Source: Rhyzopertha dominica
Taxonomy: Eukaryota; Arthropoda; Insecta; Coleoptera; Bostrichidae
Assembly: GCA_025024175.1 (NCBI GenBank)
Contig: QCXZ01000138.1
Coordinates: forward strand, 3,038,002 to 3,102,001
Direction of reading: 5' to 3'
Length of the DNA stretch: 64,000 nt
Position numbers and translations under genes: made by a program. The notes beneath the pieces are model-generated. The model did not search any database. It had not been told where the DNA came from and saw nothing but the letters and a program-made list of their open reading frames with translations. Shown here piece after piece: positions 3,832-62,579 of the stretch. Every line of letters starts with the position of its first letter. Within the stretch, counting starts at the first letter, position 1.

Positions 3832-4445
3832 ATAAATGATTCATGCGGCGTTGATGTCTGAATCCTTTGTGCCGCCTATTTGTAACTGCTGGCGAGCTAC
3901 AATAAGCACTTAGCAATTTAGGGTTTTATTTTTTATTAAAAAGGCAACAAATAACAATTAATATTGTTATAGTAGGCTTGTGGTAACCCCTATAGTCTAC
4001 ACCCTACACCCTTGCACTGTGAAAGCTTTGTGTAGTGGGAATAACATTACTACAACTTAGTTTGTGAATTTTACCATTGCGGCAGGCTCAAAACATCTTC
4101 AGTCCACCATAGTACAATTATTTAACAGGCTTACTGTAGTCACAACTTCACAAATACGATACATAACCTAAAAGTTATACGAAACCGTGTCACCCCACAC
4201 CTCTGAATTGTGAGCTTTCTGTAACCTTAAAGTTGATTATCCCACAAAACACTACAGAATGTGTTCAAAATACACACTCCCATGCGTTTTCCATTCTTAA
4301 AATATATCAAATGATTCAGCAATCGACAGATGACAAGTATACGTCAAAGCAATAGTTGTGTTCACTTTCCTGCGAGGCGGTAAACTGATTTTACTGATAA
4401 TTTCGACAAGTGCTCTGGATGCATGAATCACTTATAGAAACTCTG
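3832..4445 (+). mobile_element. Non-autonomous TA-type transposon (MITE), copy 1, eroded
   Basis: This is a diverged copy of the element at 50559-51199. It starts CAGATTTTCTATAAATGATTC and ends with the complementary ATGAATCACTTATAGAAACTCTG. The interior matches the third copy nearly throughout, including the segments around AAGCTTTGTGTAGTG, AACAGGCTTACTGTAG and TATACGAAACCGTGTC. No transposase frame is present. The TA target duplication visible at the other two copies is not preserved here. CAGG-type ends and TA flanks elsewhere point to mobilisation by an IS630/Tc1/mariner transposase. Confidence 0.8.
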
Positions 4446-6219
4446 TTCAATAGTAAGATACGCCAGGAACGATGATCGTCCAAATAAGCTGCAAATGCTT
4501 GTGGAAGTATAAATAACTTAACAGTTCGTTTCGCTGCATTCGCAGTTGAAGTATCTACCACGAGAGGGATTTGTATAAGTCGTTATGGGTTCTTAATGTA
4601 GGTACCTGTTTTTCTATTTAATGCTCTGTGTATATAGGGTTATCTTTTACAGATTACGCTTATTGAAGATAATACCCATTGGCATCGCTAGATGGCACTT
4701 TTAAAGGTAGTACAGCACAGAATGACCCTTTACAGCATATACAAGCTGAAATGTTATGTAATATAGTTGTTGAATTAAAAGCCTTCTGCTATTCGGCACA
4801 AAAAGGGAAAAAGTGTTTTGAACCCACAAAACGTTACCCTAAACAAGTGATATTAAAAGCGCAGTATAATTCCAGTATAGAAAATTAGATATGGTGTATG
4901 AATTGTTGCCGGCATAGCTTTTGTTGCCTACATGCACTACTATATATAGCTTTAGACATGCCAAAGTTATATAAAAATCATCAAATCGAAGTATTAATCC
5001 CAAAAATGACGTCGGTACTGATGATAATAATGGTTTCATCCCAATTATTAGATCAAATCATTTATATAAAAACGAATATGATATAGTTTTTGTTAAAAGA
5101 AAACAATAATTGCTAGGAAATATCACCAAAGGCTAGTAAATTGCGGTCTCATCACACCATATTTCACTTATAACACTATAGCAGCACTATTACAAGTCTA
5201 AAACTAATTCTATAATCAATAAAATGCTACCACTTTGCGTTGCCTTTTGTTTCTTTCAATCGACTGAATGCTTTCGAGCACTTGAAGCATCGCATGCTGT
5301 AGCGAACACTTGCCAGTAGCAGAGCTCTCGTAGCACGATCTAGCGCTAAATCATATTGACAGGAATCATCTTTGCTAAGTCGGATTTACGCCAAGTTCCC
5401 GATGCAGTAAAGAAAATACAGTTTGAACGCTCAAACAGGGCAGTAAAGGAAATTGAATAAGCGTATTTAAGGAGTAGAAGACATTAAGTATAATTTTGGC
5501 ATCAAAGGTTGTCTTTTTAACTATGTCAATGACTTGATTGAAAAAGGGTATTAATTTAAAACATGTTTCTAAGCAATATCCAGTGTATAAACTAAAACAC
5601 TAACATAAACTATACAACTATCGGTTTTGTGAATGACATTGTATTATGGATATACGAAAGGACGATGCTAGCCATTAGTGTTTAAATGTCTATTCTTGTC
5701 AGGCATCATATTGATATAGAAGAGTAGGTATTTTACTTGAAGTCACGGCAATGTATGCTGCATTTGCATTTGAAAGCTTAATTTTAGTAATCAAATGAAA
5801 ATTTGATTATACACACTAAGTAAGTGAAATATGAAAAGTTGAAAAGAGGAAGAAAAAGATATAGCAAAATGTGCAATAAAAAATGAAAGGGATTAATCTG
5901 TTGGCAGCATACAGAAACTGAATAATTAGTGAAATTTTCTTCCAACAAAATTAAATTTCCAAGGGAACCTGGACTTTGATGGAACTACATATCAAATGCA
6001 TCATGCGCTGATGCAGGACAGTTATATGGGTATTGTTAAAAGCTTAAGGAATATAGAGGTGCAGACATGGGAGCGGATAATTTATTAGGAAGACTACCAG
6101 TTTACCAAGGTGGCCTTCTCACCCCCAGAAAGTAAGTACTCTGTGAGAATTTAAGATGTCGATGACCTATCTCAAACAGATTGAAAGTGAATTAGGTAAC
6201 AAAATACATGAACGGCGAG
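4446..6219. other. Unassigned AT-rich DNA
   Basis: Frames at 4679-4888 and 4898-5086 show no domain and have no promoter or splice context. Nothing else was supportable. Confidence 0.4.
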
Positions 6220-17467: not shown

Positions 17468-19079
17468 GCAGCCAGATATAAGCAGGTATTACTTTCTTAC
17501 ATTTATTAGTACGTTAATGACTATTCGCTACTTATATATCAAATTAAAGCTATTTTTTCTGTGTATGCTGGAATATCTCTAGCTATGTAGGTGTGGCTAC
17601 GAGTAGGGGTTGCTAGCTGTAAAAGATAGATTAGAGTGAAAGAGAAATAGAAGACTAAAACCTATATCTTTTAGATATCATTCAAAAACAATACAGCGCC
17701 TTATAATCTCCGCAAAAGCATTCCAATCAAGCATTAAACATTTCTTGGAGCAGTACACAACCCGAACGGTACTCTTTTATACTGAAATTGTCCATTAATA
17801 GTACGAAAGCTAGTTTTTAATTTTATGTTAATTTCATCCAGAAAGCATCTGTAATCAATTTTCAGAATATTTAAAACGAAGAAAACGTTTTCTTTGAGAA
17901 AAGTAGAGTATTTTCAATAATTTAGAGGTTACCGGCACGCTGATATACGTCCATACATGAGTTCTTTAGCTAGGTCTAAGCATCACGTATAAAATGGCTA
18001 GCTTTTCTAAATACTAACGACCCTTTGTGCTTTGTCGAGTCTGTCGATTAATATAACGTCAACTCATTAAGGAATAGCGATTTCGATTTCATGCAAGGAT
18101 AGTAATTTCCGCGCGAATGGGGTCGATATGAGCAGGTATATTGTACGTTCGACGGTAACGCACATCCGGAAGATGCCCGCACACGCAGGCAACTATTAAC
18201 GGCGGAGATAATGCTCCGCTACAAACTAAGTGCAAAACTCTGACAACCGCAGAGCGTGCCATACGATTTATGTGTGCACAAGTCAAATACAGGTACTAGT
18301 AAACACAACGGGAGATATGTAGTAGTTTGGATTGATTGTTTGACAAACAAATGTTTCATCAACATACATTTCTGAAGCGAGTCAAAGTTCAATAAAGCCG
18401 TGGAAGCTGGGCTAAATCAGTTCATTAAACACGCCGGCTTGGTAAATAAACCCATAAACATCCCTCAATGCTCATGTCTTGCGCGTAGAATTTCGACACG
18501 AGTTCGGATGTTGGCCATGCTTAGAGCCAAATCGCGCGAGTAAAGGGAATAATTCAGGACTTTTAGAAGGGTTCACACGGGAAAAGCCGGTAAAAACTCA
18601 GACAACAGACTTGCAATTATGGGAAGAGGAAAAGCACAGAATTGTTCGATCGTCAGGTTTAATCACAAAAACTATAGATTAGCAAAATTAATCTGTGTCA
18701 TGCTGTCTGCATCAGAACAATCTATAGACAGCTCTTTCGGCTTAAAAAAGTCCTCTTGGCACAACTACAGTCCCAATGAAGACAACATGGCACAGATCTG
18801 GCCTTCCTTTATATGTATACGCCGAGGTAGACGATATGTATATGGGAATAACTGTGGACGCCACTATGCCATCTATTGAGCAATTAGCAGTCACCCACCC
18901 GTCTCTGTGGGGAACCAGTATCTACACTACAAGTTGAGCTACCGTTCCGAGTACGGCTTCGCCATGTAGGCGGGTGGCCGACACTGTTAACTGCCAGTAG
19001 ATGGCAAAACTGGTGAAACAACTGTGCATATAGTCCTAATGTCATTAGGCCGCTTCTTGTGGCTTGTCCTAAAACGGGA

Positions 19080-19345: not shown

Positions 19346-19414
19346 CCCGGTGCACCCCGGAAATATCATTTTAAGTTTAATTCCTTACAAAGAATATGCA
19401 AGTATAAACAAATA

Positions 19415-19500
19415 GACGGCAATGCGATCTGTCAGCCTTACACAGACATGATGACAAAGCCGCCACCTAGCTGCCACAATGGAAACTAATTCCTAAAGGA
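19415..19500 (+). repeat. Foldback repeat module A, diverged single-arm copy
   Basis: The segment beginning AGACGGCAATGCGATCTGTC, then GATGACAAAGCCGCCACCTAGC and TTCCTAAAGG, is a diverged copy of the left arm of the repeats at 42711 and 57803. Only the left module is present; there is no right arm and no hammerhead core downstream. Confidence 0.7.
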
Positions 19501-22484
19501 GATGACCTGTATTCTGTATTTAATATATGTAGGTATATTTGGATTTTGCTTTGGGTAAAAAATAAAAGTATCATTATATCCTACTTATTAACAGAGAAAA
19601 ATAAAATTAACATGTCCTCTTTGCCCGGAGCCCCCCTCTATTTTAGGATGATATTAGAAAATGATAATCTAACCCCCGAAATGAGTATCTTCAATGTACA
19701 ACAACCATAAAAGTGTTCAACGTATTACTGAAAAACTTCCCAGTTAGAAGATTTACTGATACTGCGTGATTAGAAAGCCGAATCCAGCCACTCGAGTTTT
19801 GCTCTTGTATTGAGCTCGTCAGACAAAAATGCAACAAGAAGACCAGCGCAGAACAACGCCAACTTTCCTGAAGAGCTAATAGCGAGAATGAAATTGGAGT
19901 TGCGGGATCTGGTTGCAACAATTTTTTTGAAATGGATGAATGGTTATTCGGCACACTTTATTTCGCAGTGGTTCCATTAAATTCCGCCAATTTAATCTTG
20001 AACTGACTGAAAATCAATGCAAACCAACATAATTATTATTCCAACAAGCATCATATCACTGTTGAGCCAGCTGAAGTCATTCACCCAAGACCTCCCTTGC
20101 GTCAAAAAGACAGTCGTTAGCGAACTCCATCTGCTGAAACATCTCGACATTAGCTCCGTGCACTTTCTGGTGATTCAACTAATTATGTCTGTGCTACGCA
20201 CACACGCACGTGTCGCTAGCTAAAATAATAATTTGTTCGCCGTTCATTAAACAGCGACGATGACTAAATAGGACATCATCGCCAAGGCGCTTCTTATTAG
20301 CGGCGCGCACGCTGTTAATGTGGGGCGCATGGAAGGGATGCAGTTACTTCATTTCCTGTGGAGAATTTATAAAGAGAAAACACACGCCAAATTTCAATTA
20401 GGGCCTTGCCGATTAAGTAAGGTGCCGCTTATGAGCGAAATAGCTGGAGTCAGTTTAAACATAAATCTTCCGCGGAAATAACCTTGTAGAACCGGGGATT
20501 TCTCGAAGGCCCGAATACGGTGGAAAGTACGACAGAATTAAGACGCCAAGATGCGATAATTTTATTACACGTACACCTTGTTACCCCACTAAGGGGCGAT
20601 CAATTCTCAGGCTACGAGCGCGCTATAAGCAGAAGAAAATAACTTTGATAGTGGAATGTAATATGCCAGCTCCTCGGTGCAACATTGTTATTAGATGGCT
20701 TAACGAGTGTCCCGACTAAAACGCCGGACATTTTCTTCCTTTCTTGCCCCAATCCAAGCCTGGAGGCTTACACCGAAAAGTGAACCGTTTGCCACGGTAC
20801 ACCAAAACTTTCTCCCGCAGCACACCAATGATTTTTTTTCTGGAGTTTCTAAATAAGTAGCGAATACAGATAATGTCAGTAAAACCCGCGGAAAACGCGA
20901 TTTGCAGACCATATTAAAATGGCGCCAATAAACTACGATCCACGGTGTTTGTGCGATGTTTTTGAGCAACTGATAGTACTTCAGCCTTTGATCTTTCAAT
21001 TATTTAACTGTTTTATCAATAGCATTTGTTGGTATAGTATCAAGCCACAACTACTAGAAAGCTTAGTATCGAAAGATTTTGATATCACCTACGCCAATAA
21101 ACTGATTTCTAATATCCTAAGCCTACAACAAATAACGCGTTAAAGTTAGAAACATGGAAGATTTTAACGTTCGCTATTTGAAGGCGGCCTCCCCTATACA
21201 AATCCATTCTCTGTTTCAGTGGATCTCGATGGTCTAGCTGCTCTCTTGTCAGCAGGATATTTCTGTGATTGAGAAAGTTTAGAACAAGTTCCTTGGAATC
21301 TACGCATATTAGAGCACACGACTGAAATTTCTTCAGGCTTTCTATCCGTATAGTCACTGGATGCATATCGAAAATCAATCCTCTATTATTTCTGTTTCTG
21401 AGCTTCCTCAACAATTATACTTTTGGCTGCTGCTTATTACGTTTCGAGCAAATGATGACCGCTGTACTATATTTCTTCGAGTTTATTAGTTATTGTACTT
21501 GGTTGTTGTTTTTTCTGCACGTATCATTCCAAAGAAAAGTTTTGTTCCGCAAATAAAGAATTAAAAATAATGTAGTCAAGTTTGCCCACAATTAGACGTA
21601 GTCTAAACTAATCAGCAAAAACGAAAGTAAAGCCCAATGGATACTACCAGTACTGGAATAATACGATAGGTAACAATATAAAGAAACATTGCCGTTTTAA
21701 CAAATAACAATGCAACAGAATGTTTGTTATTCTAAATGTTGCAGATGCCACTAGTTCACGAATTACTGGTCCAGCATCATAATTTTTCTTCTTCCGACAG
21801 AGATCTTTAAGCTGCGTTCATTTTCAAGGATCAGGGTTCATGTGAATCGAAATGTATTCTAAAGCTACCAGAGGGAATACAAGGACCGGAGATGCTCACG
21901 AAAATTCATTCGCTGCTCGGACTGCAAATGAAGATCCCCCGTTCAACATACGCAGCACCCATGATTATCGCAACAACTTGGATGTTCATAATAGGCAATG
22001 TTAGAAAATATCAGTCGTTAATCATTATTTTTCTAGCACTTTCTTGCAACACACCACCATATGCTTTTAGTTATTGCATATCTCCAAATTCGTCGCAATA
22101 CTGCCGTATTACACCAGATGGATGCAGTAAATACAATAAGTAATGCACCAAATAAATTGTATCTAACAGAAAAGATATATATACATATATATTACATTTG
22201 TTAAAATCACCAAATACAACAAGTGCGCAATAGTTATTACGTAAAAATATAAAACGTTTTCTTTTAAAATCTGGTGCACACCAATCCTTCCGAACTTGTC
22301 ACTGAAATGGCGACTGAACAAAATATTTTCTAACTAAAAAACCCACATTGTTAAAATAAATACAAATTCTATTAGGTTTTTCAATTTTCTTTCGTATTAT
22401 TTCATCAATAAGCTTTCATTTCTATTTATGTACAACGAAAGTACGATTTAATAATTATTTTAAAAAACTTACACAGTAATAATA
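19501..22484. other. Unassigned DNA
   Basis: Frames on both strands (for example 19691-19954 and 21109-21414 on minus, 21892-22143 on plus) show no recognisable domain. A GC- and CpG-richer island spans about 20220-20560 and another is near 20720-20940. The AT-only palindromic run near 22170-22192 is simple sequence. Confidence 0.35.
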
Positions 22485-26426: not shown

Positions 26427-27420
26427 GATATCAAGACTATTTCTGCTTCAGAGGTTCCCTTTCTTCTTCACCCTTCTTCAAACGCCTAACCTGACACACT
26501 TACCATTTTTTTCAGTTATAACAAAAACAAAATTGTAACTATTTTTCCTTTAGCAACAACTTACGGGAGCAAGATGTCTGGAAAATATCCCTGCTTCTGC
26601 TACTAAATTCTTGCTTCATCCTATTTCAAACTCTAGATCAGCCACAATTACCGTTTGTAGTTATGATGTAAACAACAAATTGTGGCTTTTCCACATTCCT
26701 ATTCCTGCTTCTGCGGCTATGTTGTGGCTTCAAACCTTAGATGGATATCGCCATTCATACCCGTTTTTCTACAAAATTCGATATAATTAAGTACACGCAC
26801 CTACGTATAATTAAAAATACAACAAGTTTTCTTAAGTAGAAATTTAGATGGCAATGTCTCTGTCAGCATTACACTGATATAATGAAAAAACCACCCAGCT
26901 GCCATTATGGGAACTACTTCCTAAAGGAAGAGACCTGTAAGCCTGACAGGTTTTAAGTTTTCGTAGATATACAATTATAGTATAGATACAATTAAAATGA
27001 AGGACAGTATTGATTAGGAATAGAAAAAAGTATGGTTAATAATATTTGATGCTGCTTCGTTTGTAAATTCCTTATAACAACCATTATAACACTGCTATAT
27101 ACCATCTATTTTTTCTGCAATATACCACATAATGTGCAACTCCTGACGTATGTTCAGAAAGGGGGCTCAAAATAAGCAACTAATCGAAAAATGTAGTTTT
27201 CGCCGTTTAGTTTGACGGTGAGTTGTGTCTTGGTATTTAGGATTTGAAGCAGAATGAAGCGGATACCTAGTCGCAGAAGCAGGAATAGTTTCCAGATATC
27301 CTACTCGCAAATTCTGGCTAAAGGCGAAGACAGCCTCAGTTTTTGCTTTTGTCATACTTCAAGGAAGGCAAACCAGTTGATCGGGAGTTTAAAGCAGGAT
27401 GAAGCAGATAGTTTCGGGGC
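26427..27420. repeat. Diverged inverted/tandem repeat cluster
   Basis: Related units of about 80-110 bp, centred on CCTGCTTCTGC, then GCTTCAT and TTCAAA, appear on the plus strand at about 26427-26512, 26553-26655 and 26690-26750, and on the minus strand at about 27218-27325 and 27370-27420. The plus unit at 26553-26655 and the reverse complement of 27218-27325 align along their whole length at roughly three quarters identity by eye. The cluster looks like an old inverted-repeat element of about 1 kb; a copy of repeat module A lies between the arms. Confidence 0.5.
26843..26966 (+). repeat. Foldback repeat module A, single-arm copy
   Basis: It starts AAATTTAGATGGCAATG and continues CTGTCAGCATTACACTGAT, CACCCAGCTGCC and ACTTCCTAAAGGAAGAGACC, ending GCCTGACAGG. 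It matches the left arm of the ribozyme-bearing repeats at 42711 and 57803 and keeps the small CTTCC/GGAAG hairpin. No right arm or hammerhead follows. Confidence 0.75.
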
Positions 27421-29907: not shown

Positions 29908-29996
29908 TATACTTAGGCTTACGATGGTGAATGCTTTCAGCGCCCATAAATATAAGATAATATTTAATACATATAATATAATAATAATGTTGGTAT

Positions 29997-30527
29997 AGGT
30001 ATGTAGATGACACTTTTGTTATTTGGCCCCACGGTATAGAAGAGCTGGGTAGGTTTCTAAATCATTTGAACAGTCAAAATCCCGACATAAAATTTACTAT
30101 GGAATAAGAAAGCAATGGTAGTTTACCTTTCTTGGATGTCCAAATTTACAGAATAAACACTGGACAGTTAGGACACAAGGTTTACAGAAAACCAACACAC
30201 ACGGACAGATATTTACATGCCACATCTCACCACCCTCCTTCTCAAAAGAATAGTCTTATTAGGACGTTATTTGTTAGAGCACAAAGGATATCAGATGAAA
30301 GTTCTGTACAAAAAGAAATATATCATCTTATATCAGCGCTAGTGAGAAATGGTTATAGTAGTAAGAATATTTGGTCAGTTTTTAATAAAAGTGCTCATCC
30401 AAATCAAGTAAATTCTCAGCCACGACAAAGCAAATTGAAGTTGAGTTTGCCTTATGTACAAGGCCTTTCGGAAAAATTAAAGAGAATGCTTAGAAAACAC
30501 GATATTTTAGTTGAAAAAAAAATTTAG
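29997..30527 (+). pseudogene. Penelope-like reverse transcriptase, C-terminal part
   Basis: The frame opens at RYVDDTFVIWPHG (29997 onward), the catalytic YxDD box, continues LGRFLNHLNSQNPDIKFTME, meets a stop at 30105-30107, then ESNGSLPFLDVQIYR and GHKVYRKPTHTDRYLHATSH. The S-LPFLDV and VYRKPTHTDRYL motifs are characteristic of Penelope-like RTs (palm/thumb region). The remaining 131 codons from ATG 30132 are open to 30527, where a 9-base A run (30512-30523 region) puts the GIY-YIG part into another frame. Everything N-terminal to YVDD is absent. Confidence 0.85.
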
Positions 30528-30883
30528 ATAAAATTTTAAGTTCTACTAAAGATAAAGTACATTTAGAAAGTGCAGGTGTTTACAAAATTACTTGTTCTTG
30601 CGGAAAGTGTTACATAGGTCAAACTAAAAGAAAAGTAGGTACGCGTTTGAAAGAACACATACGTGCTACTAAGTTGCAACAGATAGATAAATCTTCCGTA
30701 GCTGAACACTCATATTTGACTAAACACATGATTGTATTTGATAAAACAAAAATTTTACATAGAGAAAAATATTATCACAAACGTCTAATAAAAGAAGCTA
30801 TAGAAATTTGTAGGAATACTAATAATTTTAATAGGGATTATGGAAATTATGAGTTAGGTGACATTTGGAAGGCTATTTTGTAG
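30528..30883 (+). pseudogene. GIY-YIG endonuclease domain of the Penelope-like element
   Basis: In the frame of the 78-codon reading at 30647-30883, but already open upstream, the sequence shows GVYKITCSCGKCYIGQTKR, then KVGTRLKEH and, further on, SSVAEHSYLTKHMIVFDKT. It ends YELGDIWKAIL. GVY...YIG, the catalytic Arg of RLKEH and the paired cysteines (C-x-C-x2-C) are the signature of the Penelope-type GIY-YIG nuclease that follows the RT and nicks target DNA. The domain is shifted relative to the RT by one base within an A run, the commonest kind of decay in such repeats. Confidence 0.85.
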
Positions 30884-31060
30884 TTATCTTTTATCAAGTA
30901 GTTCGTGTATATCTAGTAGGTAGGTTCCTTTTTCATCGTTAGGTTCCTTTTTTTATCAGGTTGGCACGTTGTTTCTATGACGTCTCGCTTCCTTGGTGAT
31001 TTGTTTATTTACTTTCAAAATTTTGTTTGAACTTGTGTCAGGCAAATTTTGAGGTTCTTC

Positions 31061-31100
31061 GTCTTTGACAAAGATTACAGGTGTAATCGAAACGTCAGAC
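31061..31100 (+). ncRNA. Hammerhead-like ribozyme motif of the Penelope-like element, altered core
   Basis: The fold is recognisable. Stem I is GTCT (31061-31064) with AGAC (31097-31100). Stem II is GATTAC (31073-31078) with GTAATC (31083-31088) and an AGGT loop. GAAA is at 31089-31092. A minimal stem III C-G follows, then the TC of the GTC cleavage triplet (31094-31096). The first core strand, normally CTGATGA, is TTGACAA (31065-31071), three transitions from consensus including invariant positions, so self-cleavage is unlikely. Minimal type I hammerheads with very short stem III are known from Penelope-like terminal repeats, which fits the host element. Confidence 0.6.
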
Positions 31101-31660
31101 TATTAACTTTTTGTCAGTGTTTTCAAGAGACAGCGATCTATCCGACAAAATATTATCTTATACTTAGGCTTTTTTGTACATTTAACAAGGTTGCTCCTGT
31201 ATGAATCCGAAATTAAAAAATTGCTAATCATCCAATGTCTGTTGTTTTGTACGCTAAAAACTGTAGGATCTACAGTGTACGACTTTCTAAAAGGCTAAAA
31301 TAGACCGCCATTTATAAATTGACTTCCTGGTAGAGCACTAGCCTGAGGTAAATTTTTGAATGAACTTTATCTATGTACACGTATTTATTGCAATCGTGGG
31401 AGATCACAAAACAGCATATCACTATGAGTTTAGATTTTATCATTTGAATCTGCTAATTCTTAAAACGAAAACTGAAGAAATAGAACGTTGCCACCATTTC
31501 CATTCAGAGAAAGCCGTATATAAAAAAGTACAAGTAAAAGTACTCATCTAGAAACCAAGAAAGATTTAAAGTGTGATTAAACAAGATGCAATAAAAACCA
31601 AAGGTTTGTTACTTAATTAAAAAGTAAATGTAAATTATGTGCTATATTGTTCTTAACCCA

Positions 31661-38640: not shown

Positions 38641-40329
38641 GACCGCACTTGTTGATTAAGGATTTATTAGTTGGTTACTGGTTAGAGTGCACATGCCTTG
38701 TCATTATGCAGCTATGAAGTTGAATAAATACCCCCCATGTCAGCTACATTCCCATCTGTTAACAAATTGGCCGAGTGCATTACGTGAGCGAATCAAAGAC
38801 GCTCACATTCAGAATTATTTTTTTAAATACATGCTTATTAAATATAAAGAGCTAGTTTTGTATTTTAATTGATTTATGTGTCAAATAACTGCCAAGAAAT
38901 GAAAATTGGCCATAGTGAAATAAAATATACATAACGGGTAAATCTAAAATTATGATAAAAATGTACAAGATAAATATTTCTTGCTTAAGCAGTAATGTTG
39001 TTCTTACTGTGCAATGAAAGCAAATATTTAATTAAAAACTTGAGCTGCGCTGATTAAATAATAAATAAAGAAGTCTTGCATTGCAACAAACTAGACTAAT
39101 TTGAACAAGCGAAATAACTGAATTTCCAGCGCAAAAGCGAGGCAAGAAATTGGTGACTAAAACACAGTAACATAGTTATCCATGGAGAAACGAGGAGAAC
39201 ACACATTGACAAATTGCGATTTAGTTTACATTTCGTTCTTTGATTATCTTGCCTACCAACGTTTCCAACCTGTATGCGCAAATGAAACAATGTACTCAAT
39301 AAACACTATATATCAGCGGTTCTTACAGGCCGCAAGCACCGCGGAATTACGGCCCTCTAATAAAACACCGCCTGCTCTGATTACACAAAATACTATAAAC
39401 CTGGGAAACAGCTGGCCGCAGCAAAGATTTGCCGCACCGGGTAAGGCAGTTATTTTAGCCCCGTCGATTTGGAAAATGCACAAAGGCAAAGGTGAAATAC
39501 AGGCTTTATCAGTAACGTGAAGGAATAATACAATAATGGTTTGTGCTTTGGTTGTTTGTGGACAATGTCGTCTCATGATGGTCGATATAGCAGAAAGAAA
39601 GAAAGAGGTATGGATGAAACAACAATTTAAATTTTGTGGGGTGGTAAACGACTACAGGAATCGTTATCAAATGAGGAAGTTGCATGAATACTAAATTCTG
39701 GTAAATGGTGTTAGCCGAAAAGAAAATCAAATTTGGATTTATCACAATATCTCGAATTAAAGCCACTCTTCTAAAATGAATCCTGATGTCACATGCCGGA
39801 CGGGTCCGAGCACGGTCAGACTCTTAGTTGCGGAATATCCTATTGCTAGCAAAGACGACTCTTTTCATTTAACTATTGACATTTGTTAATAACTGGCATG
39901 GAAAACGCAAAATTCGTTGGCTAACAACGGAATTATCCACCTAAAATCGCACCAAGCGTGGACGTAGTATTAGAGGCGTAGCTTTAATTTAAATTTCTAA
40001 TTAATATTTTGAGCTTATTTTAGGTCTGGTCGAATTTTTTGTGCCGACATATATCCTCAAATTAAAATCTCTTTCGGGTTAGCACGTTTCTGAAAATTCT
40101 GCAATTCTACATTGTGATGGTGCGATGGCAGGTAGTGAAGCCTATCTAAATAATCAAACAAAAATGGTCATTACCAACACATCGGAATTTCGGTATTATT
40201 GGTAGAAGGTATTTGTATAGTTTTTACGTTTCCAATAAAGTACGCATCTTTGCAGCTGCACGTACTACGTCTGAGACTAGATGTAGAATCACTAGAAAGT
40301 GTTCTTTCTTTTACAAGTAATTCCCGATA
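38641..40329. other. Unassigned DNA
   Basis: A 112-codon frame at 39182-39520 has a mixed composition but no recognisable domain, and its antisense frame is equally open. Nothing else was supportable. Confidence 0.3.
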
Positions 40330-40432
40330 GGTAGCTTGGTGGCTTTGTTATCACGTCAGCTTATTGCTGACCAGAACCAGTTCTACGCCACGCTGTCTGT
40401 CAGTGGACTGAATTAGACCTAAACCTAGTTTC
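40330..40432 (+). repeat. Degenerate copy of the hammerhead-bearing repeat, core lost
   Basis: GTGGCTTTGTTATCACGTCA (40340-40359) corresponds to the right foldback arm. AACCAGTTCTACGCCACGCTG (from 40376) and ATTAGACCTAAACC (40412-40425) correspond to the 5' outer strand of stem I. The sequence then departs from the other copies exactly where CTGATGA would start, so no ribozyme core remains. Confidence 0.65.
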
Positions 40433-42710: not shown

Positions 42711-43010
42711 AAAGTAAGAATTTAGGATGGCAATGTCATCTGTCAGCATTACACTGACATGATGACAAAGCCACCTAGCTGCCTTAACGGGTACTACTTT
42801 GTCATCATGTCAGTGTAATGCTGACAGATGGTATTGCCATCCTAAATTCTTACTTTCATCATACCATTGCTTTGGTATATAAGCAAAACCAGTTCTATGC
42901 CGTGTTGTCTACACTAGACCTAAACTGCACTGATGAGCTGTAATGACAGCGAAATAGTACTATCTGCAGTTGGTTGAGGTGTAGACAGCACAGCATAGAC
43001 ATGCATTTTA
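42711..43010 (+). repeat. Foldback repeat with hammerhead ribozyme, copy 1
   Basis: Left arm 42711-42770 and right arm 42797-42856 are 60 nt each and complementary at 58 positions, with a 26-nt loop. They are followed by a link that itself contains the small palindrome ATACCATTGCTTTGGTAT, then the hammerhead unit to about 43010. The same order (foldback, link, ribozyme, ATGCATTTTAAT) occurs at 57803-58172, so the whole is one mobile or amplified unit. There is no open frame. Arms match the single-arm copies at 19415 and 26843. Confidence 0.85.
42895..42998 (+). ncRNA. Type I hammerhead ribozyme, copy 1 (complete core)
   Basis: The core strands are CTGATGA (42930-42936) and GAAA (42951-42954). 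Stem II is GCTGT/ACAGC (42937-42941, 42946-42950) with loop AATG. Stem III is TAG/CTA (42955-42957, 42960-42962) with a 2-nt loop, followed by T and C at 42963-42964; cleavage is predicted after 42964. The inner part of stem I is AACTGCA (42923-42929) with TGCAGTT (42965-42971). After an internal loop, stem I continues as CTATGCCGTGTTGTCTACAC (42895-42914) with 42979-42998, 18 of 20 positions complementary. An internal loop in stem I facing loop II is the usual arrangement in natural, fast-cleaving hammerheads. The triplet is ATC rather than the commoner GTC, which is allowed (NUH). Confidence 0.9.
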
Positions 43011-43476
43011 ATGACCGTTTGAAGTCACTTCAAGACTATGAATATGGTGGCTGGAGTGATAATAATTAGGTGTCGATAAATGAATAACTGTTAGTGAACA
43101 TAAAAATTAATTATCAGAATTTGATTTGAAATCAAATATAAGATGGGTTGACCAGAAATTATCCAAAGGATAATGCTCATCTGCAATGATTGTTGTATGT
43201 TATATCGTAATCTCAATGGGTTGAGGTCTCCAAAAATATATTTCTACAACTACATTTTTAAGGTACCGCAATTTAAAAACAAAAACAACGGTTTTAAGAC
43301 TGGAATTTATTCTCTTGATACCTTAACTCCCCAACATTTTCTTCCACATCCCACCAACCTGTACAGGGTAAGGCACTTACATTCCGACAAACTTTAATTT
43401 GAATTTCCCGCCATACAATAGTTCCCTAAGCGTTTATGAAGGCCACATACGTCTAGTTTAAAGTTGCAATCTTAAT
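43011..43476. other. Unassigned DNA
   Basis: A 74-codon frame at 43173-43397 has no recognisable family; nothing else was seen. Confidence 0.3.
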
Positions 43477-49220: not shown

Positions 49221-49593
49221 CAGGGTTGCTACAAATGATTCATGCAACGCGGATGGCGTTGATTTCTGAATTATTTGTGCCGCCTTCTTGTAACTGCTGC
49301 TAAGCTACAATATGCACGGCGATAGTAGATCAGTTGCAGATCAGTATCACCCCACAGCTCCGAAATGTGAGCTTTCTGCAACCTTAAAGTTAATTGTCCC
49401 ACAAACCACTACAGAATATGTTGAAAATACACACTCCCTGACGTTTTTCATATTAAAGTAAATCAAATAATTCAATAACCGATAAATGACAAGTAAGCAA
49501 TAGTTGTGTTCACTTTTTTGAAAGACGGCAAATAGATTTAATCGATAAATTCCATAAGCGCCCTGGATGCATGAATCATTTATAGAAACCCTG
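49221..49593 (+). mobile_element. Non-autonomous TA-type transposon (MITE), copy 2, internally deleted
   Basis: It starts CAGGGTTGCTACAAATGATT and ends ATCATTTATAGAAACCCTG, flanked by TA on both sides (49219-49220, 49594-49595). Compared with the copy at 50559 it lacks about 270 bp of interior between the TACAATATGCACGGCGATAG region and the CACCCCAC segment. It has no open frame of its own. Confidence 0.9.
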
Positions 49594-50558
49594 TATTTTT
49601 TCCTCTGGTGTGTCACTACAGAGTAGGTTCTAAAGGTAAAAGAGAAGCTCAAAAACTAATGCATATTTTATTAAAAAAATTAAGTCTGCAAAACCCATTA
49701 AGTGAGGTAAACGCCATCCTACTTCATATTTAATATATTATTTTGTAATCCATTCTATACAAGTGTATTAATAAAGTTCGATACATGTGACGATATCGCC
49801 ACGGAATATTATTTTTTAATTGTACAATAAAGCCTTTAAGATAACCTAATTCTGACACCATGGAACCAACTTCAGGTAGAACGAAGTCATGATTATTTCC
49901 TCCAGTCTCGCTAATCATATTAATCTAAGCACAATAAGCCTTGGTTACCCACAGAAGACGAAAAAGCCTGAACAGCCGTGCGAACCAAAACATCGCTACC
50001 ACGTCAAAGGAACGAACGTCCTCCCCACAAGCAGAATAGCAAATAACGGGACAATTAACTGGCCAATTTATCCGAGGCCATAAGCGAATACTTAATTCAA
50101 ACGGGGCCGAGCGGGCTTCCTTCCTTCTCAGAAATGTAACGGCGACATTATGGGCAATCAAAAGACGGCATTTCCGACGCCACGCAAGACACGCGTCCCA
50201 AATCGACTGCCACACGTACGCNCCAAGGAAACCCACCCCTCCGGGCCCCCCCATAAGTGATCCTAATGCGAGCACCACTCCATTTACACCGCTTCCAAAG
50301 CGACCGGTGACACGGGAGTCCGTGAAAAGGCCCCAACGTCGTTTCCACTGGAAAATTCGACGGACCTCCGAAGAGATCGCTTAGTTGCGACCGATCGGGA
50401 TACACGTAGGAAAGTAAGAGCCGCTGAGAAAGGAGCAGTGGAAGTGCAGCAATTACGAGCAAAAGGAATGGGGGGAGCTGGTCTTAGAAAGAGTTTCAGC
50501 GGCTATTCGTATCCCATCACGTATACATATAAGCATGAAGTTATGTGTATTAGTAATA
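49594..50558. other. Unassigned DNA with a GC-richer island
   Basis: Between the two MITE copies, 49920-50500 is GC- and CpG-rich. Frames of 100-117 codons are open here on the minus strand, but open frames are expected in GC-richer DNA and no domain was recognised. One ambiguous base is at 50222. Confidence 0.35.
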
Positions 50559-51199
50559 CAGGGTTTCTATAAATGATTCATGCAACGCCGGCGGCGTTGA
50601 TTTCTGAATTCTGTGTGCCAGCTCTTTGTAACTGCTGCCAAGCTACAATATGCACGGCGATAGTACTGAAGATTGCAGATCAAGTTACAGTCATGAAATT
50701 GCTGGCTTTATGAAGAGTTCCCAAAAATTTACGGTTCTATTTTTCTGTCAAAGGTAAGAAATTACAATAATTATTGGTGTAGTAGGCTTGTGGTAACTTC
50801 TACAGTTTACATTTTTGCACCGTGGAAGCTTTGTGTAGTGCAGCTAACGTTACTACCTATCACTTAGTTTGTGAATTTTGCCATTGTGGCAGGCTAAAAA
50901 CATCTTTCAGTCCGTTATTTAACAGGCTTACTGTAGCCACAACATCAAAACTACGACATATACAAGTTATACGAAACCGTGTCACCCCACTGCAACCTTA
51001 TAGTTAATTATTGCACCAAATACTACAGAATTTGTTGAAAATACACCATCCCGCGCGTTTTCTCATATTAAAAAAATTGACAGATAACAAGTACACGTCA
51101 AAACAATAGTTGTGCTCACTTTCCTGAGAGGCGGCAAATTGATTTAATCGATAAATTGCACAAACGCTCTGGATGCATGAATCATTTATAGAAACCCTG
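50559..51199 (+). mobile_element. Non-autonomous TA-type transposon (MITE), copy 3, full-length reference
   Basis: Perfect 26-bp terminal inverted repeats (50559-50584 and 51174-51199) begin CAGGGTTTCTATAAATGAT. The element is 641 bp and is flanked by TA at 50557-50558 and 51200-51201. No transposase remnant is recognisable inside. The ends, CAGG with TA target, suggest cross-mobilisation by a Tc1/mariner-type transposase such as those whose fossils surround it. It lies 965 bp from copy 2, in the same orientation. Confidence 0.92.
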
Positions 51200-51284
51200 T
51201 ATAATAATGGGTGCACTAATTGAAAGTTAAAAGAAAACATACATGAACTACAAATTGATCGTGTGCTCAAAAAAGCATCAGGAA

Positions 51285-57802: not shown

Positions 57803-58172
57803 TATAGATGGCAATGCCATCTGTCAGCATTACACTGACATGATGACAAAGCCACCTAGCTGGCCATAATGGGATCTACTTCCTACAGGAAGTGACCTAT
57901 AGCCTGACAAATTGGTATGCACGTTTAGGAAATATATCCCATTATGACATCTAGGTGGCTTTGTCATCATGTCACTGTAATGCTGACAGATAGCATTGCC
58001 ACCTAGATTATTACTTACATCATACCAAGCCTTTGGTATATAGGCAAAACCAGTTCTATGCCGTGCTGCCTGCACAATACCTAAACTGCACTGATGAGCT
58101 ATAATGATGGCGAAATAGATCTATCTGCAGTTGGTTGCGGTGCAGACAGCGCAGCAGAGAGATGCATTTTAA
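57803..58172 (+). repeat. Foldback repeat with hammerhead ribozyme, copy 2
   Basis: Left arm 57803-57874 and right arm 57937-58007 (about 71 nt) pair along most of their length. The 62-nt loop is longer than in copy 1 and contains the CTTCC/GGAAG mini-hairpin and CCTGACAA segment also seen at 26843. The right arm continues through the ACCAAGCCTTTGGT palindrome into the hammerhead and ends with GATGCATTTTAAT, as in copy 1. No flanking target duplication was identified with certainty. Confidence 0.85.
58055..58159 (+). ncRNA. Type I hammerhead ribozyme, copy 2 (complete core)
   Basis: CTGATGA is at 58091-58097 and GAAA at 58112-58115. Stem II is GCTAT/ATGGC (58098-58102, 58107-58111) with loop AATG. 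Stem III is TAG/CTA with a 2-nt loop (58116-58123), followed by T-C at 58124-58125; cleavage is predicted after 58125. The inner part of stem I is AACTGCA (58084-58090) with TGCAGTT (58126-58132). The outer part (CTATGCCGTGCTG, CTGCAC) pairs with 58140-58159 with a few mismatches. Relative to copy 1, a stem II pair changes from G-C to A-T and an outer stem I pair from A-T to G-C, both keeping pairing. Confidence 0.9.
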
Positions 58173-58314
58173 TTAATTATGTTGTTACGCATTAATTAAT
58201 GTGTTTGTTAAACTTCAACTGACTATAAAAAAAACTACTACTAAGGTCCTCAACTCTATCCTTTCTGATTAGTTTCGGGCCATCTAGATTATATGAGTAT
58301 GTTGTATTTGTTTT

Positions 58315-59345: not shown

Positions 59346-60528
59346 TGGCTCTGCCACTCTTAAGAGTATATAAAATATATTTTTTGATAGAAAATATCAA
59401 CAGTTTTATATTCACTTTGCTTTGATTTTTCAAGTCTGACCTGTCCATTTCACTGAAAGATCAATATAATCTATAGAAAACAGGTTTATTAAAGTTACAC
59501 TTTGGATTGAATACATTGGTTTGACTACATCGCTTGTGCTTTACATAATAAGTCAGTGAAGAGTGATGTTCGTTCTCATTTACCAAGCAAGTACCACCAT
59601 TTACCTAATGGAATATTGAACCGATTTGATAAAAATAGGAAAATTATTTTGTGAAAATTAAAAAGAAGCCAAGCAAACCAGAATTACAGATTCCTCTGAT
59701 GTAAAAAATGCTTATTGTTTACAATTTTTTTTATTTTGTGTGGTCAATTGGCCGTCGCTATTAACAAATTCTACTCTACTGGCATAATATTTTTTGTTCC
59801 TCGCTATGAAAATCAGTTTCAGTTTTCACAGTGACGTTAAAATCACTAACTGTGACAATCATATGCGTTTCTCATCTTGTCCCACTAGTTAGGAATTAAA
59901 AGCTTCAAAAGTTCACACGGTCCCAAAATAAGCAACAATGTTGCGGCAATGGATCCACCAGTAAATTTGAATGCTGCAAAGTAACAATCATTACCCTAAT
60001 AATCATACAACATGAATTGCTTGCAATGCAGTAACATCGTTACCTCGGGGCAATGTAATATTCCTGTGATAGATGGAGGCCGTTCCCTATTCATTATCAT
60101 GGGCATGCACCGGATAAAGCGGAGCCGGTGCCGGAATTTCCGGAATTGGTGACGGATTCTCTATTGTGTTATTGTAACAAGTTAGACGTGCCAACTCGAC
60201 GATTGAATTAGAATGTTTTACCTCCAAACGTTATTGTTTTAATTAGTCCCGGGTTCAAACATTTGTTTTATCCCGAACGGCGCCCTAGCCGCGCAGTGGC
60301 GCCTCGTGATTATGGACTGCCGATCTACCCGAAAATAATACGCGGTGTAATAAATTTTTCAATTATGTCTTAATCGTAATCACTTTTTTGTTACATCCCC
60401 ACTTGATTTTTACTGCTTACCTAAGCTGGCTAGTACCGCCATTTATTTTTAGGGTAATAACTAAAAAATGACACCAGCTCTTCGTATGGTGACATATTTT
60501 GTAACTTTACTTTTAGGTTCTTCATATA
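59346..60528. other. Unassigned DNA with a GC-richer island
   Basis: Upstream LINE sequence may extend a little into 59346-59500. Positions 60060-60320 are GC- and CpG-richer and noncoding. Nothing else was supportable. Confidence 0.35.
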
Positions 60529-61939
60529 CAGGATGTTTCACGAATGACAGTGACCCTGACGAAATTAAAAATGCAACTCAAAATACATTCTAATAGCCAA
60601 TGTGGTTATTTTACATAATGGTATTATTTTAAAAATAAATTGGGAATCCATGACGGCTATGCGCTATGGTTCCTATCACTGTATTTATTAAAAGTCAAAA
60701 TGTATTCAAATGATGAAAAAACAGATATGATTTTGATTTATGGTGAATGCAAGAAAAATGCTCCCGCTGCTGCCCGTTTATACAGACAACGTTTTCCAAA
60801 CAGAAGAGCTCCTGCCGATAACATCTTCAACTTTAAGGACAAAGTGGCCAACACCGAAAAAGTCAAGAGAAAGAACAGCAACAGGCCCTGACAATGAAAT
60901 TAGAGTATTGGAAATGATTGACGAAAATCCTCATATTAGTCAAAGGGTAGTCTCAAGAGCAACCAGTATTAGTCGGTCTTCAGTACACCGAATAATTAAA
61001 GGCAATCAATTTCAGCCGTATCACTTGCAATTGGTTCAGGCCTTAAAGTAGCCAGATTATCCTAAAAGATTGGTTTTGTAACTTTTTTTGGGAACAACAA
61101 AATTTGTATGTGAGATTTTATGACAACATTTCTCAGATGAAGCAAGATTTTCTAATAATTGTGAAGTTAACAAACATAACATGCATTATTATGCGCAAGA
61201 AAATCCACGTTGGATTCGAGAAGGGCATTTTCAAACTATCTACTCGACGAATGTCTGGGGCGGAATATTGGGGAATCAAGTTGTCGGGCCTTATTTTTTT
61301 CGCGATGGTTTAAACGACAATACTTATCTAATTTTTTTAAGAAACATTTTACCGGTACATCTCCAAAATGTAAATTTACAAGTAAGTCAAGATCTATGGT
61401 TCCAACAAGATGGAGAACCTGCGCATTATCATAGAATAGTGCGAAATCATCTCGATTTTGTTTTGCCTAACAGATGGATAGAAAGAGGTTCAATTAATCA
61501 TTGTCCACCGAGAAGCCCTTGGATTTTTTTGTGGGGAATGATAAAAGAGCAAGTATACCAAACACCATTTGAAAGTATAGAACATTTAGAGAATAAAATA
61601 CGTGATGCACGTAGATCCATCACTCCAGAAATTTTAATGCATGTTAAAAGATCGTTTTGGGCACGAATTCAAGCTTGTGAAGCAGCGGAGGGCGACATTT
61701 TGAGCATTTATTACATTAATTTTATTAAATAACATTCTTTAAAAATAAAATTTGTTTTACAATACCGAATTTACTTAAAGCAGATGATTGAAGTTTATGT
61801 CAAAATTTACAAATTTATACAGCTNTCTACGTTTTATATTTTTTAAGACGATGAACAATTATCAATGTTACCTCTNCAAATGTATTTTGGGTTGCATNTT
61901 TAATTTCGTCAGGATCATTATCATTCGTGAAACAGCCTG
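60529..61939 (+). mobile_element. Tc1/mariner-superfamily DNA transposon with both termini
   Basis: The 5' end begins CAGGATGTTTCACGAATGA and the complement of the 3' end begins CAGGCTGTTTCACGAATGA. The terminal inverted repeats extend about 64 bp with a few differences (60529-60592 and about 61876-61939). TA flanks both ends (60527-60528, 61940-61941). The 1,411-bp element encloses one transposase pseudogene in the same orientation. Long inverted repeats and complete ends mark it as the best-preserved transposon in the window. Three ambiguous bases (61825, 61876, 61898) lie in or next to its 3' terminus. Confidence 0.93.
60700..61732 (+). pseudogene. Transposase of the 60.5-kb element, DUF4817 plus DDE type, disabled
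   Basis: ATG 60700 starts a DUF4817-type leader (MYSNDEKTDMILIYGE, ARLYRQRFPNRRAP). A frame change near 60885 leads to a second HTH (NEIRVLEMIDENPHISQRVV, SRSSVHRIIKGNQFQPYHLQ). Stops at 61049, 61079 and 61121 interrupt the linker. The DDE domain then runs open to 61730-61732: FSDEARF with the first Asp at 61136-61138, NKHNMHYYAQENPRWIREG, NVWGGILGNQVVGPYFF, and WFQQDGEPAHYH with the second Asp at 61409-61411. The third block reads PRSPWIFLWGMIKEQVY where relatives have RSPDLTPLDFFLWG: an in-frame loss of five residues that removes the third catalytic acid. C-terminal LMHVKRSFWARIQACEAAEG is normal. This copy could not catalyse its own transposition. Confidence 0.88.
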
Positions 61940-61941
61940 TA

Positions 61942-62579
61942 TACGTTGTTCGTTAGTATTCGAAAATTAGTGCTACACGATTTTATAAAAATTTAAACAC
62001 CCGTTCTTACTGTTAAGTTTTGTTTTTTTAAGTTTAGTTTAGTTTAAGCTTTTTAACTTGGTTTCTGATGGTGCATAAGGCATGATCACATATTTCCCGT
62101 TCGAGCTGGAACACGCTAAACAACAAAAGAAATTCAGTTTTGCTGATCAGTAAGCCCGAGAGTGCTAGTTCACTCTCTTATTGATTTAAAATGATCTTTA
62201 TAAATTCGTCCTAAGTATACAAAGTATAGATACTTAACACAAACATACAAATTGAAGAGAGTACCTATTTAGTACCACTATACTAAGAGAAAAGAATAGT
62301 AACGCAATCTGGTGTGACCACCCCGAAGTATGACATGAGCTGTACCAGCAACTTGACCGCCACAAAGAAAAAAAAAGTCCAGCGAATTGTCATATTTAAA
62401 ACAGGTAACATCTGACTTGGTTTTCGATGATAATCAGAGTCCCGAGCAGCTTTTCTCTTACTACAATGAAGCTGGGTAGTAGAGCATATTATATTTACAA
62501 CAAATACCTTGCAGTCGTCACCTCCATTCGCTCCAAAAGTCTGTTTATTATTATAGAAGTACGCGCGTTATCGCTAGGC
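61942..62579. other. Unassigned DNA
   Basis: AT-rich, becoming GC-richer towards 62560. Nothing recognised. Confidence 0.3.

Follow-up and report, generated by a model that had tools for sequence, protein, structure and literature searches.

The hammerhead ribozyme of the window (the whole stretch of 64,000 nt of Rhyzopertha dominica DNA that was analysed) would belong to a non-autonomous retrozyme of the animal type, inserted from two DNA ends by the machinery of Penelope-like elements (PLEs). From the sequence comparisons described below, this reading was given a probability of about 0.76. The features that carry it, as read in the genomic copies, are a repeat unit of 352 nt, fixed ends, parts in opposite orientation, variable junctions, target duplications, variants shared within a locus and a matching anatomy of the PLE copies read. 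Fixed ends, opposite parts, variable junctions, duplications and shared variants together suggest that the foldback form of the repeat is the scar of an insertion primed at two ends. The features of the window that belong to the family, or bear on it, are listed in Table 1.

Table 1. Positions of the hammerhead repeat family and of the PLE fragment in the window.
Feature	Position	Strand	Remark
Type I hammerhead with long outer helix	42895..42998	+	Predicted cut after 42964
Stem III palindrome, possible dimer contact	42954..42963	+	
Left target-site duplication of copy 1, ATGACCGTTTGAA	42700..42712	.	13 bp, exact
Right target-site duplication of copy 1, ATGACCGTTTGAA	43011..43023	.	
Inverted part of copy 1, 84 nt	42713..42796	-	Putative cDNA from unit site B
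Forward part of copy 1	42797..43010	+	Putative cDNA from unit site A
TATA-like box TATATAAG	42876..42883	+	8/8 to TATAWAAR
Older copy 2	about 57805..58171	+	Hammerhead 58056-58159
Family fragment from site B, without hammerhead	26834..26948	-	
Family fragment from site B, without hammerhead	19396..19516	-	
Degraded arm fragment of the family	40304..40371	+	
Diverged hairpin weakly related to the hammerhead, without the core	18693..18795	-	35.8 bits
PLE fragment, RT C-terminal part and GIY-YIG, two-ended	29917..31161	+	13-bp duplication TATACTTAGGCTT

Searches and locus samples

Copies of the repeat were sought in the assembly to which the window belongs (138 contigs, 479 Mb), and 101 matches were obtained from the 40 scored of 1517 candidates. 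All counts given here are of the loci read; the family, with its 1517 candidates, extends beyond them. The queries were copy 1 of the window and, as an unbiased query, a ribozyme-free segment used with no selection for ends, which gave 33 distinct loci besides L009. L009 was recovered by both queries and was counted once. Because the 30 short loci were picked by the copy 1 query, their lengths and junctions are biased.

The loci L009-L090 number 82; those sharing the left flank with an earlier locus (10) were removed, leaving 72 distinct loci, and L001-L008 and the window copies stand outside the 72-locus counts. Each locus was decomposed against the 352-nt unit, and its outer ends were assigned to the unit sites A and B. 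Pieces no more than 130 nt apart were merged, by which L060 is A-B (tighter merging gives one B-B piece). L057 was called B plus variable by the script, and by eye is A-B with a 13-bp duplication. L046, in which a neighbouring piece was merged, was tallied as unassigned; its short copy has both ends. L039 and L040 have common flanks and look like one event. Pattern scans of collections of viral contigs and genome contigs gave 0 matches.

The hammerhead ribozyme

On the evidence of its sequence the hammerhead of copy 1 is genuine, and the cut given in Table 1 is its predicted position. All of the parts named by the sequence-only reading were found in place: CTGATGA at 42930-42936, stem II (GCTGT/ACAGC, loop AATG) at 42937-42950, GAA at 42951-42953, a stem III of 10 nt (ATAGTACTAT) and C17 at 42964, with the 3' strand of stem I next. 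The structure has the CUGANGA ... GAAA core, three stems with the opening at stem I, and an NUH triplet. The continuation of stem I into an outer helix was likewise borne out, at 20 pairs (6 + 14), and in the fold stem I has an internal loop and stem II a loop of its own.

The fold z-score of the copy 1 hairpin was -7.97, and equally stable structures were found in 0 of 200 shuffles. A descriptor of the complete hammerhead matched two places only in the window, 42930 and 58091. Its chance rate was 0.02 per dinucleotide shuffle in the loose form, and the strict form was matched 0 times in 200 shuffles. On the other side, 1.38 chance occurrences are expected for the short motif CTGATGA..GAAA. 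The second of the two places lies in copy 2, the hairpin of which differs from that of copy 1 at 14 of 104 positions and has an intact core. The claim of a type I hammerhead within a dispersed repeat is supported.

An Infernal search with the Rfam models, proposed earlier as a check, gave a divided answer. No family was matched in the window at the gathering score; a weak match below that threshold was obtained with Hammerhead_HH9, the top Rfam match of copy 1 (28.0 bits, gathering 52; E 0.0081 over the window). Copy 2 scored 21.8 bits with the same family (E 0.79). Covariation between copies 1 and 2 only (two double-sided pair changes, 95% of cells paired) was not above that of shuffles (120/500). 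The unconstrained minimum free energy fold, at -50.2 kcal/mol, has part of the core paired otherwise, and the hammerhead form with stem III open has -48.0 kcal/mol. The 10-mer of stem III is a perfect palindrome, which gives no fold alone and a duplex of -9.6 kcal/mol.

Full-length hammerhead stretches, 99 in all, are spread over 63 of the 72 loci. In 85 of them CTGATGA, GAAATAG, C17 and a stem III palindrome are intact; that stem reads ATAGTACTAT (81) or ATAGATCTAT (4), both palindromes. The two palindromic forms fit a dimer, only suggestively so in a family that is young, and action of the hammerhead as a dimer, by contact of this stem, is given an even chance. Cleavage by the ribozyme in vivo is probable. 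At L057 (1650-1759) an inversion junction was seen by eye at the palindromic stem III of a hammerhead, and looks as if a join or a template jump had used the palindrome.

Insertions read through the predicted cut site, and a single locus of the 72, L044, has an end within 1 nt of it. The forward part of L044 stops near the predicted cut, as the right end of the element, without a target duplication; it is possibly a copy of cleaved RNA, or else the result of a later deletion. That nearly all insertions cross the cut site would agree with a template of linear multimeric transcripts in place of circles, the ribozyme then trimming the RNA or being a passenger. PLE hammerhead mutants, moreover, insert in vitro as normally (PMC11167929). 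Retention of the core and of the stem III palindrome in 85 of 99 instances speaks against a linear template, although the youth of the family alone may explain it. Linear transcripts are rated as a real possibility, at somewhat under even odds.

The 352-nt unit and the copies in the window

Two genomic forms were found, one of them short (about 300 bp) and built like copy 1, the other an array with 96-100% identity to copy 1 in its ribozyme half. The period given by Tandem Repeats Finder was 352 in L009 and L010 (99% and 97% matches) and 351 in L011. The order within the unit is site B (TCATCATACC), the TATA-like box, the hammerhead and site A (ATGCATTTTA, position about 155-157), followed by about 195 nt without ribozyme, after which CTTACTT comes again. 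The longest stop-free stretch in tandem units is 98 aa, and no RT/EN frame is present. The TATA-like box of copy 1 and of the unit was equalled in 15 of 300 shuffles, and that of copy 2 (7/8) in 198 of 300. The A and B boxes of RNA polymerase III, which mark a tRNA-derived SINE, were not detected above chance, the best boxes being matched in 55 to 144 of 300 shuffles.

Copy 1 comprises 298 bp (42713-43010), its left part being an inverted repeat of its right part, and is 99.5% identical to the L009 array unit over 42797-43013. For its target duplication, a common stretch of 13 bp or longer was found in 2 of about 2000 random 71-mer pairs. Copy 2 has an inverted part at 57807-57921 and a forward part at 57924-58173; a target duplication was sought around it and none was found. 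The repeat had been described from the sequence alone as containing a foldback module. The foldback is present; as a module it did not stand, the tandem 352-nt unit being the basic form and the foldback, in the majority of insertions read, two opposite pieces of it, with junctions that mostly differ.

Ends, junctions and target duplications

In 58 of the 72 distinct loci the outer ends are site A on one side and site B on the opposite side, and the two parts, contrary in orientation, meet inside. A-A or B-B insertions numbered 0 among the 72. With the unbiased query, the script classed 24 of 33 loci as A-B inverted, 5 as B plus variable, 3 as A plus variable and 1 as other; the A-B class rises to 25 once L057 is read by eye, and the script found no inversion in the 8 loci with a variable end. 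The 8 or 9 of 33 loci that are not A-B inverted count against the two-ended rule. With the copy 1 query, A-B loci made up 7 of 9 array loci and 27 of 30 short loci, the other 3 having one end unassigned. To be detected by the unbiased query an A-A insertion would need a part of more than 254 nt started at A; such a part is present in 10 of the 24 loci, so that the query left room for A-A. Under free choice of A or B at each end, 24 mixed loci in 24 have a chance of about 6e-8.

Exact target duplications of at least 8 bp (8-17 bp) were found in 53 of the 58 A-B loci, and measured 12-15 bp in 44 of these. An exact 8-bp duplication was absent from the other five (L016, L019, L036, L037 and L045).

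Junctions placed by BLAST ends were distinct in 24 of 24 unbiased loci and in 56 of 58 overall. Finer placement in the 30 short loci and copy 1 gave 27 exact junctions in 31 copies, or 22 when those within 2 nt were merged. One junction occurs at three sites (L028, L031 and L032), and another is shared by copy 1 and L027. Body divergence was 3.59% for copies whose junctions are equal or almost so vs 3.66% for the others; since same-junction bodies are no more alike, most shared junctions look like recurrent joining at favoured places. L028, L031 and L032 differ from one another at 2-4 of about 154 positions, and may descend from a foldback copy.

A heritable foldback element with a ribozyme, SINE- or MITE-like and copied whole, would account for those exact junctions at different sites, and for the two termini that the 30 short loci (283-313 bp) have in common. 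It would not be expected to show 27 exact junctions in 31 copies selected for their similarity to copy 1, nor bodies no more alike where the junction is the same. Longer and non-inverted forms also occur, and the A/B-box matches do not exceed those of shuffles. Such an element is considered very improbable.

Joins were measured within 15 nt in 54 cases. An overlap of 1-9 nt was present in 35 (2-4 nt in 27), and a short gap or additional bases in the remaining 19. Inner-end distances range from -169 to 156 of 352. The putative cDNAs measure 41-1123 nt when started at B and 48-1015 nt when started at A; both can thus pass one unit, to about three units at most. Self-priming, in which a cDNA, or an RNA template of antisense polarity, folds back and serves as its own primer, requires near inner ends, against the spread observed, and leaves the second fixed outer end unexplained in the 58 loci with A and B ends. 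In the accessible part of PMC3846280, head-to-head pseudo-LTRs with short duplications are ascribed, with reserve, to self-priming, which is proposed there for rotifer head-to-head Penelope copies with junction palindromes and left open. For the present repeat it is rated as quite unlikely.

Opposite strands within a locus differ by 1.22% vs 2.12% when partners are swapped, and 0 of 2000 permutations were as low (31 loci). This low divergence indicates that both parts were copied from a single RNA, or else from RNAs with a common source. The shared variants fit a circle or a multimeric transcript equally.

Penelope-like elements of the same genome

The PLE fragment of the window consists of an inverted piece (about 29917-29965) with the longer 'tail' end and a forward piece (29986-31161) with the shorter end. 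Its duplication starts at 29908 and at 31159 (whole 29908-31171). Relatives of its frame carry PF26215 and, among the best 120 of 415, those that are named come mostly from arthropods and some from echinoderms. A genome search with this fragment gave 150 scored matches of 8939 candidates at 94-100% identity, some with open frames of 805-814 aa. Neighbours in opposite orientation within 4 kb formed 11 pairs among the 150, all head-to-head by eye; one PLE pair about 3 kb apart has the same direction.

Ends were compared in L091, L093 and the window PLE; L092 runs beyond the stretch examined. The PLE insertion at L091 is inverted and has a 15-bp duplication and outer ends that differ by about 30 nt, and L093 has the same two ends with a 14-bp duplication. 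Both have long head-to-head arms, 99-100% identical over 2-3 kb. The difference between the two PLE ends corresponds to the PLE 'tail', which spans the distance between two start sites of the RT (PMC11167929). Unit site B (TTCTTACTT) and the shorter PLE end (TATCTTATT) bear a weak likeness, which may be a start-site motif.

In vitro a purified PLE protein is able to cut both DNA strands and to extend them, and the start sites are alike on the top and the bottom strand (PMC11167929). Since hammerhead mutants insert in this assay and the strands are alike, neither circles nor a strict A + B rule follow from it.

With PLE derivatives the repeat shares, in the loci compared, head-to-head inverted structure, duplications and two fixed end sites. 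By blastn (E up to 0.1) the unit had no sequence in common with L091-L093, taken as autonomous PLEs for comparison. From the anatomy we infer a kinship by mechanism; the comparison gives no sign of one by descent. PLE protein matches (E up to 1e-5) lay near the element in 5 of 90 loci only (L008, L011, L017, L052 and L059), so PLEs appear to be no regular component of the loci. A hammerhead was sought in L091-L093 and none was found; all available PLE sequences are said to show one in the accessible part of a review (PMC6155905).

In L1 twin priming the second DNA end primes internally, and an inversion with a short overlap at the join results. The internal priming site of L1 varies and the inverted part is no repeat of the forward part, whereas here the forward part is repeated in the inverted part, and neither start site varies. 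Two-ended insertion driven in this manner by a LINE protein would agree with the short overlaps, and LINEs are also among the candidates of the retrozyme authors (PMC7229834, accessible part). The PLEs read in the same genome share the anatomy of the repeat, and a LINE protein as the driver is rated as unlikely.

Other features of the window

Several other interpretations of the family were tried and rejected. A MITE or foldback DNA transposon with constant terminal inverted repeats was set aside, arm lengths and junctions varying in most copies, and a functional double-stranded foldback module was dropped for its variable junctions. The core is missing from the stretch at 18693-18795, which was rejected as a third ribozyme; its 35.8 bits compare with 36.1 for the reverse strand of copy 1. 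An arm at 19.4 kb and this hairpin were not retained as a single interrupted element, the arm ending at site B like other insertions. MicroRNA and snoRNA matches on the arms were ascribed to long inverted repeats.

At 60525-61943, inverted repeats of 65 nt (91% complementary) enclose a 202-aa open frame (61124-61732), which by eye resembles a Tc1/mariner transposase; its top database relative is 61% identical. Pfam matched 0 families on this frame and on that of the window PLE. On the minus strand, 18900-19050 is tRNA-like by eye and may be a tRNA-derived SINE; ARAGORN finds no tRNA there. Another dispersed repeat family occupies 4187-4452, 49344-49600 and 50958-51206, with blocks 63-87% identical.

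Proposed mechanism

The template would be transcripts of tandem units, or circles formed after hammerhead cleavage and ligation; a circular rather than a linear multimeric template is given an even chance. At a new site the target strands would be cut about 13 nt apart. Usually each DNA 3' end would prime its own first-strand cDNA, with site A as the start of one cDNA and site B as that of its partner; priming by both strands is regarded as very probable. Joining of the two cDNAs, often via a few common bases, would then leave two parts inverted head to head, the outer ends being fixed and the inner junction variable, flanked by a duplication that mostly measures 12-15 bp. One end alone would be primed in a minority of insertions. 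The enzyme would most likely be a Penelope-like reverse transcriptase/GIY-YIG protein, and the anatomy of the copies makes a PLE the likely mobilising agent.

PLEs are named merely as a strong candidate for the mobiliser of retrozymes in the accessible part of PMC7229834. Their inverted repeats are left to be explained in that of PMC3846280, as are the steps past the first priming in PMC11167929. A young family with dozens of readable insertions makes both the mobiliser of retrozymes and the inverted repeats of PLEs testable. The pairing of A with B, with no A + A or B + B in 72 loci, is a rule that any insertion model must explain. On balance we favour a wider view, in which PLE-type insertion would generally be two-ended, with A and B starts of which the tail and the inverted pseudo-LTRs are the trace, and the hammerhead repeat would be a parasitic ribozyme circle. 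The reading as a parasite of PLE machinery, if true, answers what moves animal retrozymes.

Comparison with known systems

Type I hammerheads are carried by other animal repeats, among them the Sm-alpha repeats of Schistosoma, the satellite of Dolichopoda cave crickets and newt satellite 2. These repeats are cited in PMC7761336 and PMC6155905. To our knowledge a two-ended insertion anatomy has not been described for these three.

A kinship with animal retrozymes, suggested by the sequence-only reading, holds for unit size, ribozyme type, GC, duplications and self-pairing, the features tested. The tandem units of 352 nt fall within the range of about 150-450 bp, each with a type I hammerhead (the window copies are not tandem). 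GC is 0.44 (<50%), the duplications of 8-17 bp in 53 of 58 loci are longer than 4 bp, and in a circular fold 0.71 of the unit is self-paired (about 70% or more in retrozymes). Like the unit, animal non-LTR retrozymes carry a type I hammerhead in tandem repeats (150-450 bp each), are low in GC and lack an LTR; their target duplications are large and their RNA is strongly self-paired (Cervera and de la Pena 2020, PMC7229834; features were also drawn from PMC4918200).

The departures from animal retrozymes, as read from the sequences, are the two-ended insertions and, possibly, the TATA-like box. A review sees no promoter in animal retrozymes (PMC7761336, accessible part), whereas the unit has a TATA-like box. 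The unit loci are mostly head-to-head inverted with two fixed ends, a form absent from the retrozyme description in the accessible text of PMC7229834. No description of two-ended insertion for retrozymes was found in the accessible parts of PMC7229834, PMC4918200 and PMC7761336, nor in any title among the matches listed by literature searches that lay mostly outside subscription journals.

The unit differs from PLEs in having no RT/EN frame and no similarity to L091-L093, and its end sites are about 155 nt apart vs about 30 in PLEs. Like endonuclease-containing PLEs, as described in PMC11167929 and the accessible part of PMC3846280, it has head-to-head inverted repeats with short target duplications. 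It also resembles them in an optional tail between two start sites, and may do so in its TATA-like box, PLEs having a TATA box in the pseudo-LTR.
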